DNA from: Polyangiaceae bacterium
GTDB lineage: Bacteria > Myxococcota_A > Polyangia > Polyangiales > Polyangiaceae
Reading direction: 5' to 3'
Length of the DNA: 42,623 nucleotides
Assembly: GCA_023150915.1 (NCBI GenBank)
Contig: JAKLKA010000052.1
Coordinates: 1 to 42,623, forward strand
In this document: positions 8,561 to 26,053 of the stretch, one piece after another
Numbering within the stretch: position 1 is the first letter of the stretch
Layout: each line of letters begins with the position of its first letter
The notes under the pieces: model-generated
Databases searched by the model: none
Seen by the model: the letters and a program-made list of their open reading frames with translations, nothing else
Told to the model about the DNA's origin: nothing
Position numbers and translations under genes: made by a program

Positions 8561-8632
8561 GGGCGCATAACTCAGCGGTAGAGTGCGACCTTCACACGGT
8601 CGAAGTCGCAGGTTCGATCCCTGCTGCGCCCA
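8561..8632 (+). tRNA. tRNA-Val (anticodon CAC)
   Basis: A full cloverleaf can be drawn: acceptor GGGCGCA (8561-8567) with TGCGCCC (8625-8631), D stem ACTC/GAGT around loop AGCGGTA, anticodon stem CGACC/GGTCG around loop TTCACAC giving anticodon CAC, and T arm GCAGG-TTCGATC-CCTGC. The discriminator is A8632. The next bases are CCC, so the 3' CCA is not encoded and must be added. It decodes GUG, a common Val codon in such a GC-rich genome. Confidence 0.95.
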
Positions 8633-8675
8633 CCCGGTCTTCCCCCAGCGCGCCGCGCCCTGGCCGCGCCCCGGG

Positions 8676-16385: not shown

Positions 16386-16463
16386 CGGGGCGTAGCGCAG
16401 CCTGGATAGCGCACCAGACTGGGGGTCTGGGGGTCCCGGGTTCAAATCCCGGCGCCCCGACCA
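16386..16463 (+). tRNA. tRNA-Pro (anticodon GGG)
   Basis: The acceptor stem is CGGGGCG (16386-16392) with CGCCCCG (16453-16459), followed by discriminator A and an encoded CCA. The D arm is GCGC around AGCCTGGATA, the anticodon stem is CCAGA/TCTGG around CTGGGGG giving anticodon GGG, and the T arm is CCGGG-TTCAAAT-CCCGG. It reads CCC codons, and CCU by wobble. Unlike tRNA-Val in this window it encodes its CCA. Confidence 0.96.
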
Positions 16464-22455: not shown

Positions 22456-23226
22456 TCACGGCGTCTGCGCGAGCGCTTCGCGGTAGCGGCGCACGGGCGT
22501 CAGGTCGTAGGGTGCGAGATCCACCGGCAGCTCGCCGAGCACGCGGTATCCGAGCGGTGTGGGTCGGATCTCGAGCGCCCGAAAGGCGACACCGGCGCGC
22601 CCCGCGCGGCGCGCGGCGGCTGCGAAGCGTGGATCGTGAACGTCGGAAGGGCGCACGCGCCGGGCGTCGGTTCGTTGAACGGTGAAGAGCACACTGGCCG
22701 CCCGTCCGCTCTTCACCACCCGCGTGAGCTCTTCCAGGTGGCGCAGCGCGCGCTCGGACTCGGCGTCGGGGAAGTAGGCCACGCGGTCCGGGTAGACCAG
22801 GTGGCAGTTTTTCACCTCGATGAAATGCTCGCGCGACGTGCTCGCCAGCCGGAAGTCGACCCGCGAGGCCTTGCCGTAGGGGTACTCGGCCGACAGCTCG
22901 GTGAAGCGCCGGAACCCGCGCAGCGCGCGCGCCTCGAGCACCGCGCGCACCAGGCGATTGGCCATGATGGTGTTCACCCCCACCCAGCCCGAGTCGAGCT
23001 CGAGCAGCTCCCACGTGTAGGCCAGCTTGCGGCCGGGTCGCGCGGGCGAGAGCAGCACGCGCCGCCCCGGCACGAGCAGGCCTTCCATGCGGCCGGTGTT
23101 CACGCAGTGCGCGACCACGCGCTCGCCGCTCGCCAGCAGCACGTCGGCGAAGAACCGCTTGCGGCGACCGATCAGCTGGCCCGCGACCAGCGGCGCCGCG
23201 TGCGGCACGAACACCCGATCGCTCAC
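22456..23226 (-). CDS. sfsA: SfsA family protein (sugar fermentation stimulation)
   Basis: SfsA-family protein of 256 aa with an N-terminal OB-like part (AHCVNTGRMEGLLVPGRRVLL) and a PD-(D/E)XK nuclease-like core (SRVDFRLA, then HFIEVKNCHLV as the E-x-K strand). The ending HDPRFAAAARRAGRAGVAF matches the family's YDP-F. SfsA was named for its effect on maltose metabolism in E. coli; it binds DNA, and its biochemical role is unsettled. The GTG at 23226 overlaps the stop of the DTW gene (GTGA). Longer frames upstream run inside that gene and are rejected. Confidence 0.92.
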   Translation of the reverse strand: MSDRVFVPHAAPLVAGQLIGRRKRFFADVLLASGERVVAHCVNTGRMEGLLVPGRRVLLSPARPGRKLAYTWELLELDSGWVGVNTIMANRLVRAVLEARALRGFRRFTELSAEYPYGKASRVDFRLASTSREHFIEVKNCHLVYPDRVAYFPDAESERALRHLEELTRVVKSGRAASVLFTVQRTDARRVRPSDVHDPRFAAAARRAGRAGVAFRALEIRPTPLGYRVLGELPVDLAPYDLTPVRRYREALAQTP

Positions 23227-24344
23227 TTCGCGAGCCCCGATCGAGCTCGGAGCGCCTGTGCGATCGCCAGCGCCTGGCCCAGCCGCACGGCGCTGCGGCC
23301 GCGGACCTGGGCGGGCACAGGCGCGAGGTTCGCGCGCGCCACCACCGCCTCGAGCGTGCCCGGAGCGCGCTCGAAGGCATTGGCCCAGAGTGCCTTCAAG
23401 CACAGGCCGGCGGGTTCCAGGTCGGCGGCGGCGAGCAGATCCAGCGTGCTCTGGTTCCAGGCGAGCACGATGTCCCGCTTCTTGCGGAAGCTGCGCCAGG
23501 CGCTGGCCAGCTCGGCGGCGGACGCTCCGTGGGCGAGGTCCTGGTCCGACAGCCGCATGTGAAGCTGGCCCGAGGGCGGCGGCCCGGCGACGATCTGATC
23601 GAAGACCTCGCCGGTGGCGGCGCGCATCGCCACCACCTGCACCAGCGCGCGGTGCCCGACACCCGGCGCCGACTCGGCGTACGCGAGCAAAAGATCGGGC
23701 CAGCGCTCTGCGATCACCCGCGCCACCCCGCGGGCGCCGACCCCTCGCCGGCGCTTGCTGCGTCGCGGTCCGGGGCGCTGCTCGATGAAGCGCAGCTGAT
23801 CGTCGATCATCGCGTCGAAGGCGCCGAGCAGTTCGTCGAGGCCGCGGGTCTCGGGCTCGAGCACTCGCAGCGCGGCGACCACCGCTTCCACGGTCGAGAC
23901 GCACTCGACCCGCGGCTCGCGCCGGATGCGATAGCGGCTGGGGTCGACGGCGCCGAGCGTGACCTTCGGCACGCCCGCGAGAAACCCCAGATCACGCTCC
24001 AGGGTGTGGGCGTGGTGCCAGGTGCCGTCGAGCACGATCAACTGCTCGGGGCGCTCGACCGGGGACAGCGATTCGATCGGCCGCGCATCGGCCCCGGGGT
24101 AGAGCAACGCGGTCCCGGGCGCGATCTCGGGGAGCGCACCCCTTGGGCCCGAGAGAAAGGTCACGTCCAGCCGCATGCGCGCCAGCGCCAGCGTCAGAAG
24201 CCGCACCGTGCCGATGGGGTGACGTCGCTCGCGAGGGTGCTGCAGGACCCAGATGCGGGTCCGGTTGTCGACCCGCGGCACGCGCGCGCAGAGGCACGTC
24301 ACCGCCGGCTTCATGCAGCGATAGCAGAAGGGCCGCCCGGTCAC
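23223..24344 (-). CDS. DTW-domain tRNA-uridine aminocarboxypropyltransferase with C-terminal extension
   Basis: DTW proteins (TapT/TuaA family) add the acp group to uridine in tRNA, using S-adenosylmethionine. Of 373 aa, residues 1-190 are the DTW domain: cysteines C7, C10, C17 and C19 in the N-terminal CYRC-MKPAVTCLC pattern, then NRTRIWVLQHPRE, and the name motif DGTW at 106-109. A basic linker (RRSKRRRGVGARG, 194-206) leads to an extra domain of about 165 residues. It looks like a DEDD/DnaQ exonuclease fold with decayed active site (see findings). The GTG at 24344 overlaps the kinase stop as GTGA, and the stop overlaps sfsA as GTGA. The modification position is inferred from the family only. 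Confidence 0.87.
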   Translation of the reverse strand: MTGRPFCYRCMKPAVTCLCARVPRVDNRTRIWVLQHPRERRHPIGTVRLLTLALARMRLDVTFLSGPRGALPEIAPGTALLYPGADARPIESLSPVERPEQLIVLDGTWHHAHTLERDLGFLAGVPKVTLGAVDPSRYRIRREPRVECVSTVEAVVAALRVLEPETRGLDELLGAFDAMIDDQLRFIEQRPGPRRSKRRRGVGARGVARVIAERWPDLLLAYAESAPGVGHRALVQVVAMRAATGEVFDQIVAGPPPSGQLHMRLSDQDLAHGASAAELASAWRSFRKKRDIVLAWNQSTLDLLAAADLEPAGLCLKALWANAFERAPGTLEAVVARANLAPVPAQVRGRSAVRLGQALAIAQALRARSGLAK

Positions 24345-26053
24345 TTCGGCTTGCTCAGCTTCTTGTCGGGCTTGCCCTTGCCCTTGCCCGGATCGCCCTT
24401 CGGATCGGGGTTGGCGGGCGGCGGCGGCGCGGCGCTGGCCGACGAGGTGGCGGTGGGCGCAGCGGGAGGGGGGCTGGTCGACGGCGCGAGGGCCGCGGCC
24501 TTCGGCGCGGCACCGCTCGGGGCCGCCGCGGCAGACGGCCCCGGCGTGGCGCTCTTGGCCGGCGAGCTGGCGGGCTTGCTCGGGGGCACGGGCGTGCCGG
24601 CGGGGCCGGGCTCGCTCGGATCGGCCGGCGCTGGGGTCGGCTCCGTCGCCGTCGGAGCCGCGCCTGCGGGCGGCGCCGCGTTCGCGATCTCGGGGCTGGC
24701 GGATGCCGCGGCGCCCGGCGACTCCCACGGTCGCATCAGCAGCGCGCCCGCAGCGACCAGGCCGAGCGCCACCAGCCCGAACGCAGCGAACACCAGGAAC
24801 GCCACGGCGCCGCGATGCTTCTTGGGGGTCGGCAGCGGCGCGGCAACTGCCGGCGGCGCGCCCGCCATCGAGTACGGGGGCAGCGATGCGGGGACGGGCT
24901 CGGCGGCGAACTGCCCGGGCGCCGCCAGCGAGTACGCGGGCAGCGACGCGGGAACGGGCTCGGCGGCGAACTGCCCGGGCGTCGCCAGCGAGTACGCGGG
25001 CAGCGACGCGGGAACGGGTTCGGCGGCAAACTGCCCGGGCGCCGCCAGCGAAGCCGGCGCCTGCGACGGCCCCGGCGCCACGACCGTGATCGGCGCGGGC
25101 GACACCACCGTCGGAGCCTCGCGCAGCGACGCCGGCCCTTCGATCCGGGTGGCTTCTTCGGCGCGGGCCGTGGCCGCCATGGCGAAGTGGGGCAGGGTGC
25201 CCTCGAGCACGGCTCGCACGTCGCGCTGCATGGTTGCGGCGTCGGGGTAGCGGGCGTCTTGCGAAAACGCCAGCGCCCGGTCGACGATCGCGCAGACCGC
25301 CGGCGGCGTGGCCGGCGCCACCTCGGCCAGGCGTGGCGCCGGCTTGGTCGCCATGGCGACCAAGAGCTCGGCCTCGCTCGGCTCTTCGTGGATGCGACGC
25401 CCGGCGAGCGCGCGGAACATCAGTGCACCCAGCGCGAACAGATCCGTGCGGCCATCCACCTTGCCGCGGCGACCCAGCGCCTGCTCGGGCGCCATGTAAG
25501 GGATGGTGCCGAGCGCAAGCCCGGTGCGCGTCTTGAACTCGCTTGGCACGTCGTCGATCACGCGCGCAATGCCGAAATCCAGGATCTTGATGCCACCCTG
25601 TGCCGGCACGAAGACGTTGTCGGGCTTGATGTCGCGATGCACCACCCCGGCCGCGTGCGCCGCGCCCAGCGCGCTCAGGATCTGGTCCGAATAGCCGAGC
25701 AGGTCTCGCACCGTGAATTGATCCGCGCGCTGCAGGCGCGCCCCCAGCGACTCGCCCTCGAGCAACTCGAGCACCAAGAACACGTCGGGCCCATCCGCGT
25801 GCTCGAGCACCCGCACGATCCCCGGATGGCCGATGCGGTTGGCCACGTACGCCTCGCGCAAGAAGCGCTCTTTCAGCTCGCGCCGCCTCGCCATCTCGGC
25901 GTGCAAGATCTTCAGCGCGACGCGCTGGCCGCTCGCGTCGGTCGCCTCGTAGACCGAGGCCATCCCGCCGCTGCCCAGGAAGCGGATCAGCCGCCAGCGG
26001 TCGCCGACCGTCTGGCCGCTTCGGTCTTCGGCAATTTCGGGGGGCAGCGCCAT
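24341..26053 (-). CDS. Eukaryotic-type serine/threonine protein kinase with membrane anchor
   Basis: Inner-membrane Hanks-type kinase, 570 aa. The kinase domain (about 20-285) is complete: Gly loop GSGGMASVYE, K48 in VALKIL, catalytic D141 in HRDIKPDN, D159 in DFGIAR, and MAPEQ at the end of the activation segment. A cytoplasmic linker contains three 20-residue repeats (about 336-395, unit like LAAPGQFAAEPVPASLPAYS). One helix at 415-440 follows a basic KKHRG stop. The outer tail is Pro/Ala/Ser-rich and ends in a lysine-rich stretch (KGKGKPDKKLSKPK), with no PASTA or other sensor domain. It is first in an operon with the DTW and sfsA genes. Myxobacteria encode many such kinases; substrates are unknown. 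Confidence 0.93.
   Translation of the reverse strand: MALPPEIAEDRSGQTVGDRWRLIRFLGSGGMASVYEATDASGQRVALKILHAEMARRRELKERFLREAYVANRIGHPGIVRVLEHADGPDVFLVLELLEGESLGARLQRADQFTVRDLLGYSDQILSALGAAHAAGVVHRDIKPDNVFVPAQGGIKILDFGIARVIDDVPSEFKTRTGLALGTIPYMAPEQALGRRGKVDGRTDLFALGALMFRALAGRRIHEEPSEAELLVAMATKPAPRLAEVAPATPPAVCAIVDRALAFSQDARYPDAATMQRDVRAVLEGTLPHFAMAATARAEEATRIEGPASLREAPTVVSPAPITVVAPGPSQAPASLAAPGQFAAEPVPASLPAYSLATPGQFAAEPVPASLPAYSLAAPGQFAAEPVPASLPPYSMAGAPPAVAAPLPTPKKHRGAVAFLVFAAFGLVALGLVAAGALLMRPWESPGAAASASPEIANAAPPAGAAPTATEPTPAPADPSEPGPAGTPVPPSKPASSPAKSATPGPSAAAAPSGAAPKAAALAPSTSPPPAAPTATSSASAAPPPPANPDPKGDPGKGKGKPDKKLSKPK
24871..25050 (-). repeat. Three tandem 60-bp repeats inside the kinase gene
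   Basis: Three consecutive 60-base units (24871-24930, 24931-24990, 24991-25050) are nearly identical and differ at only a few positions. The period is an exact multiple of three, so each unit codes for 20 residues of the linker between the kinase domain and the membrane helix. A recent slippage or recombination origin is likely, and copy number may vary between strains. Confidence 0.95.

Follow-up and report, generated by a model that had tools for sequence, protein, structure and literature searches.

The locus raises the question of what a DTW enzyme, predicted to modify tRNA, gains from a second domain appended to its C terminus, and from where that domain came. In the window, by which we mean the whole analysed stretch of 42,623 nucleotides, positions 23223–23732 translate on the minus strand into residues 205–373 and the stop codon of a 373-residue open reading frame. 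A preliminary description had read this part as a decayed DEDD exonuclease resembling DnaQ, and the stretches that it quoted (LLLAYAES, TGEVFDQIVAGP, RLSDQDLAHGASAAELASAW, DIVLAWNQSTLDLL and SAVRLGQALAIAQAL) are all present in the protein, with E224 and D302 correctly numbered. The gene encodes two domains, a DTW domain and a C-terminal domain (hereafter C-domain) homologous to DEDD exonucleases, and its near relative L003 encodes a protein 78% identical to that of the window. The gene and its parts are as follows:

23223..24344, minus strand: two-domain gene, DTW plus pseudo-exonuclease, 373 amino acids, GTG start; full length conserved in relatives
23793..24335, minus strand: DTW domain, residues 4–184, a predicted tRNA-uridine aminocarboxypropyltransferase (Pfam PF03942; PDB 9kyt)
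23226..23738, minus strand: C-domain, residues 203–373, putative inactive DEDDh/ERI1-like exonuclease homologue (hhalign with controls; member matches in NCBIfam and Pfam)

Over residues 4–184, the protein scores 138.1 bits with the Pfam DTW model, above the gathering score of 33.7 (E 3.9e-40), and its sole significant solved relative by sequence is 9kyt, a tRNA-uridine aminocarboxypropyltransferase (E 2.7e-8, residues 7–160). The TDD family is defined by a D-s-o-W motif, an Asp or Glu after strand 1 and a Glu in the penultimate helix (PMC4275035), and the window protein carries this signature as E39, E153 and the motif at

24018..24029, minus strand: DGTW, residues 106–109, the DTW/TDD family signature

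In the fused relatives with a full DTW domain, C7, C10, C17, C19, H36, E39, D106, G107, T108, W109 and E153 are the same in 124 of 124 (the partial DTW of L203 was excluded, hence 124 of 125). Fused proteins outside the host's class have the same residues in 17 of 17 cases, bar one G107A. The residues predicted to form the DTW catalytic site are conserved across the fused relatives. The same intact DGTW, Glu and Cys residues are found in the DTW domains of Escherichia coli TapT (YfiP) and human DTWD1 and DTWD2 (PMC6895100). An RNase role had been guessed for the DTW domain in 2014 (PMC4275035); later work showed that TapT and DTWD1/2 form acp3U (PMC6895100), and by analogy with these named families the window protein most likely makes acp3U on tRNA from S-adenosylmethionine. 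The main text of the TapT paper never uses the word exonuclease, so an extra domain of this kind is not discussed there. A second, unfused DTW protein is encoded in the same genome (L002, G000:C144:789-1310; E 4.1e-36, Pfam E 1.1e-36), and the fused protein is therefore not necessarily the main tRNA enzyme of its host.

The C-domain of the window, searched alone, matched no Pfam or NCBIfam model at E ≤ 1, and its E value of 0.87 with an ERI model places it among the weak members of its family. Its relatives are more telling. In an alignment of 28 C-domains (A1; L021, with a stop within the match, and L023, at a contig end, were left out), 4 of the 28 members matched Pfam RNase_T, with a best E value of 0.0036, and members matched NCBIfam exonuclease/DnaQ models with E values down to 1.9e-5. 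The top PDB matches with A1 were DEDDh (E 0.012), Cas2-DEDDh (0.026) and PolC exonuclease (0.16). When genomes were searched with the A1 profile, separate genes were also retrieved at E 1e-6 to 1e-3, some of them RNase_T exonucleases themselves, which came up at E 1e-6 to 1e-4 (e.g., G026:C41 and G017:C928). The profile of a larger set, of 129 C-domains, aligned end to end with exonucleases in hhalign. For 21 DnaQ- and ERI-like sequences the alignment spanned 149 columns at 97.8% and E 1e-12, and for 17 ERI-like sequences it spanned 158 columns at 98.4% and E 5.1e-15. The controls stayed far from these values: the reversed profile gave E 0.39–0.57 against four sets, the best of 20 column permutations gave 0.039, and the DTW profile as target gave 0.061. 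Eleven of the 22 sequences in the first DnaQ-/ERI-like set had been chosen through C-domain profile matches; 10 exonuclease sequences chosen independently of that profile gave E 7.4e-9 with 28 C-domain rows and 1.6e-9 with 129. At the level of single members, HMM searches at E ≤ 0.01 matched 64 of 129 with the ERI-like model and 56 of 129 with the DnaQ-like model, and none of the 129 shuffled members with either. The 28-row profile gave a nonsignificant E value of 0.034 against 32 RNase_T loci that are mostly oligoribonuclease-like by motif reading, and not all RNase_T subgroups thus align with the C-domain.

One could argue from that last result, and from the failure of the window's own C-domain to match any library model, that the domain is unrelated to exonucleases and the pattern in it arose by chance. 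Structure prediction could be cited on the same side: AlphaFold models of the full protein and of residues 203–373, each from two sequences (window and L003), were of low confidence (pLDDT 38.8 and 51.3, respectively) and neither had an RNase-H-like fold, the model of residues 203–373 being all helical; at this confidence we take both models as uninformative. Against the E values of the family profile, with its clean controls, and the NCBIfam matches of individual members, we consider a chance origin of the pattern extremely improbable. In these comparisons the C-domain resembles DEDD exonucleases beyond chance, which supports their homology, and the likeness noted in the preliminary description stands; as significance is reached by the family profile only, that reading had caught by eye what a single sequence hides.

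The catalytic residues of DEDDh exonucleases are the D-x-E of motif I, an Asp in motif II and a His and an Asp in motif III. To count these we used 161 loci, 160 of which yielded a C-domain, and duplicate removal left 131 and then 129; L001, L002 and L003 are absent from this survey, and C-domain carriers in the host's class outnumber those that it includes. Of the 129, 2 have the first Asp of motif I and none has D-x-E, and the window protein retains a remnant:

23673..23675, minus strand: E224, remnant of the D-x-E of motif I, with the first Asp replaced by Tyr; Glu in 121 and Asp in 5 of 129

In motif II, an Asp is found at position 300 in 1, at 301 in none and at 302 in 35 of the 129, and in motif III, in the ERI-like alignment, His 352 is found in 1 and Asp 357 in 2; the register of motifs II and III is uncertain, since the DnaQ-like and ERI-like alignments differ slightly. 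Another 17 C-domains from outside the host's class include one with D-x-E (L237) and none with His 352 or Asp 357, and a complete exonuclease site is found in none of the 146 (129 and 17). The earlier statements that most catalytic acids are gone and that E224 is kept agree with these counts. The claim that D302 is left from the site fares less well: the catalytic Asp of motif II aligns at 300 in the ERI-like alignment, and D302 is probably not its remnant.

The single protein with D-x-E, L237 (G352:C79), is a fused relative outside the class that keeps the motif I as D-x-E-x-x-G and has lost motif III, and it is possibly an intermediate of the exonuclease decay. Together with the Glu or Asp at position 224 in 126 of 129, it is what could be cited in favor of a C-domain still active as a metal-dependent nuclease through E224 and replacement residues. 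Such an enzyme would have to work with the first Asp missing in 127 of 129 and with the near absence of the Asp at 300 or 301 and of His 352 and Asp 357 counted above, and we regard it as very unlikely. The residue counts instead support a C-domain that is predicted to be catalytically inactive as an exonuclease, its catalytic set being lost throughout the sampled family.

The preliminary description had taken DnaQ as the closest source. In a tree of 66 rows, 29 C-domains (a random draw from the 129 plus that of the window; L228 was left out) and 16 ERI1/KapD-like rows fell on one side of a branch with support of 100/97. Constraining the C-domains to group with the DnaQ-like sequences costs 17.95 log-likelihood units and is not rejected (AU P = 0.094), and the C-domain stem is long, at 1.62 changes per column, which makes the exact attachment point uncertain. 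Single-sequence scores are divided, with 53 of the 129 members scoring better with DnaQ, 51 with ERI and 25 tied. As profiles, the DnaQ-like DEDDh exonucleases match the C-domain at E 5.6e-11, more weakly than the ERI-like set (score 70 vs. 95), and where their motif II has HN, the C-domain has WN or WG. The ERI1/KapD-type exoribonucleases match over 158–167 columns, including SWG and LK stretches, and are the neighbors in the tree; the window family differs from them in missing the complete catalytic set and in its fusion to DTW. The label ERI-like itself rests on L101, which matched ERI1 structures at E 3.3e-20 and the KapD model at E 7.4e-26, the latter below that model's cut-off. The source of the C-domain is probably the ERI1/KapD branch of DEDDh exonucleases, with DnaQ the less favored origin.

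A domain descended from exonucleases and stripped of their catalytic set is naturally guessed to have a noncatalytic role such as RNA binding, and some of its residues are strongly conserved:

23457..23459, minus strand: W296, near-invariant Trp at motif II, aligned to the Trp in SWG-x-Y-D of ERI1-like sequences; Trp in 127 of 129
23295..23297, minus strand: R350 of the GRA/GRS stretch in the motif III region, which lacks the catalytic His and Asp; Arg in every filled row (125 of 125), the other 4 of the 129 being gapped

R350 is also found in 14 of the 17 C-domains outside the host's class, and other conserved positions are G349 (118 of 125 filled rows) and R241 (123 of 129). The conservation of W296, R350 and E224 suggests selection for something other than catalysis. 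The enzymes of the ERI1 branch act on RNA substrates. We favor, with reasonable confidence, the reading that the protein is a TapT-type acp-transferase joined to a dead descendant of a DEDDh exoribonuclease that most likely docks the RNA substrate. The intact DTW site would place the 3-amino-3-carboxypropyl group from S-adenosylmethionine on a tRNA uridine, and the dead C-domain, no longer cutting RNA, would dock the RNA and thereby help to choose or position it for the DTW site. The docking step, taken by itself, we hold to be somewhat better than an even guess.

The same conservation of W296, R350 and E224 would suit a structural or interface role; the dead exonuclease might then serve as a protein–protein or dimerization module. 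RNA binding is the simpler assumption for a domain that sits on a tRNA enzyme and whose relatives in the ERI1 branch act on RNA, and we take a protein module to be unlikely, if well short of negligible. More speculative, and in our view unlikely, is an extension of the docking model in which the fused enzyme is specialized and not a second copy of TapT: the Trp and Arg of the ERI1-derived domain would recognize an RNA 3′ end or a stem-loop and direct acp3U to a site or an RNA different from that of the unfused paralog.

The combination of domains is not new, contrary to the earlier statement that no described fusion of this kind was known. Burroughs and Aravind reported in 2014 that delta-proteobacterial and planctomycete DTWD2 proteins are fused to a catalytically inactive 3′–5′ exonuclease domain, and proposed RNA binding for that domain (PMC4275035). 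The published fusion agrees with ours in the two domains, in the inactivity, in having delta-proteobacteria among its carriers and in the suggested RNA binding, and the window protein, with DTW fused to a predicted inactive exonuclease domain in this group, falls under that description. The 2014 account of the fusion neither mentions the ERI1 branch nor surveys the residues of the fused domain, and identity with this exact lineage is our inference. A literature search found no later paper on the DTW–exonuclease fusion. Both the fusion and the proposal that it binds RNA have thus been known since 2014, which makes the gain as a discovery small, and what is added here is little: the probable ERI1/KapD grouping, the correction on D302 and the extension of the fusion beyond the class. 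The family offers what looks like a clear case of a domain that once degraded RNA, lost its chemistry and was retained as part of an RNA-modifying enzyme. It also suggests, in a form open to testing, a way in which DTW enzymes may select their RNA, for which the family-wide survey points to W296, R350 and E224 as the residues to mutate.

The distribution was followed in overlapping genome samples of increasing breadth. Relatives of the whole protein are found in 87 of 98 family genomes at E ≤ 0.001, with DTW-only matches counted. Within the order, 112 of 183 genomes have the C-domain at the same threshold, 7 of these by a weak match only, and it is found in 110 of 192 genomes of the class sample, 8 of them weak only. 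In the phylum sample, 35 of 187 genomes have it at E ≤ 1e-8, and 16 of those lie outside the host's class. A DTW domain is in the same open reading frame for 125 of the 129 C-domains and for all 17 outside the host's class, and the fusion therefore extends beyond the class. Among the four C-domains without DTW, three (L132, L137 and L174) are at a contig end; the fourth, L167 (G054:C286), has no recognizable DTW in its 2.1 kb and is either a C-domain encoded on its own or a disrupted gene. Four genomes carry a DTW-only gene immediately next to the fused one (G042:C47, G069:C209, G081:C172 and G090:C87). A search of viral contigs with the whole protein retrieved no relative, and a plasmid search gave three matches in the DTW part, none spanning more than 48% of the query.

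On both sides, the gene overlaps its neighbors by a few bases:

24341..26053, minus strand: gene for a Ser/Thr protein kinase, lying upstream, with a stop that overlaps the DTW start (Pfam Pkinase E 4.8e-39)
22456..23226, minus strand: downstream sfsA, its GTG start overlapping the DTW stop (Pfam SfsA E 4.8e-37, SfsA_N E 1.6e-21)

We considered a conserved operon and rejected it beyond close relatives: across 31 loci, sfsA was an immediate neighbor at 4 and a kinase match at 7. Both counts take in the locus of the window itself and have one contig twice, as L003 and as L005, and they draw on flanks of at most 1.5 kb except for L003. The kinase and sfsA occur together only in the loci of the window and its closest relatives, and so say little about function. 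The kinase gene itself contains a 60-bp tandem repeat at 24840–25101, with 3.5 copies and 91% matches, in an Ala/Pro-rich linker. The window also contains genes for a tRNA-Val (cac) at 8561–8634 and a tRNA-Pro (ggg) at 16386–16463, at distances of about 7 to 15 kb from that for the DTW protein.
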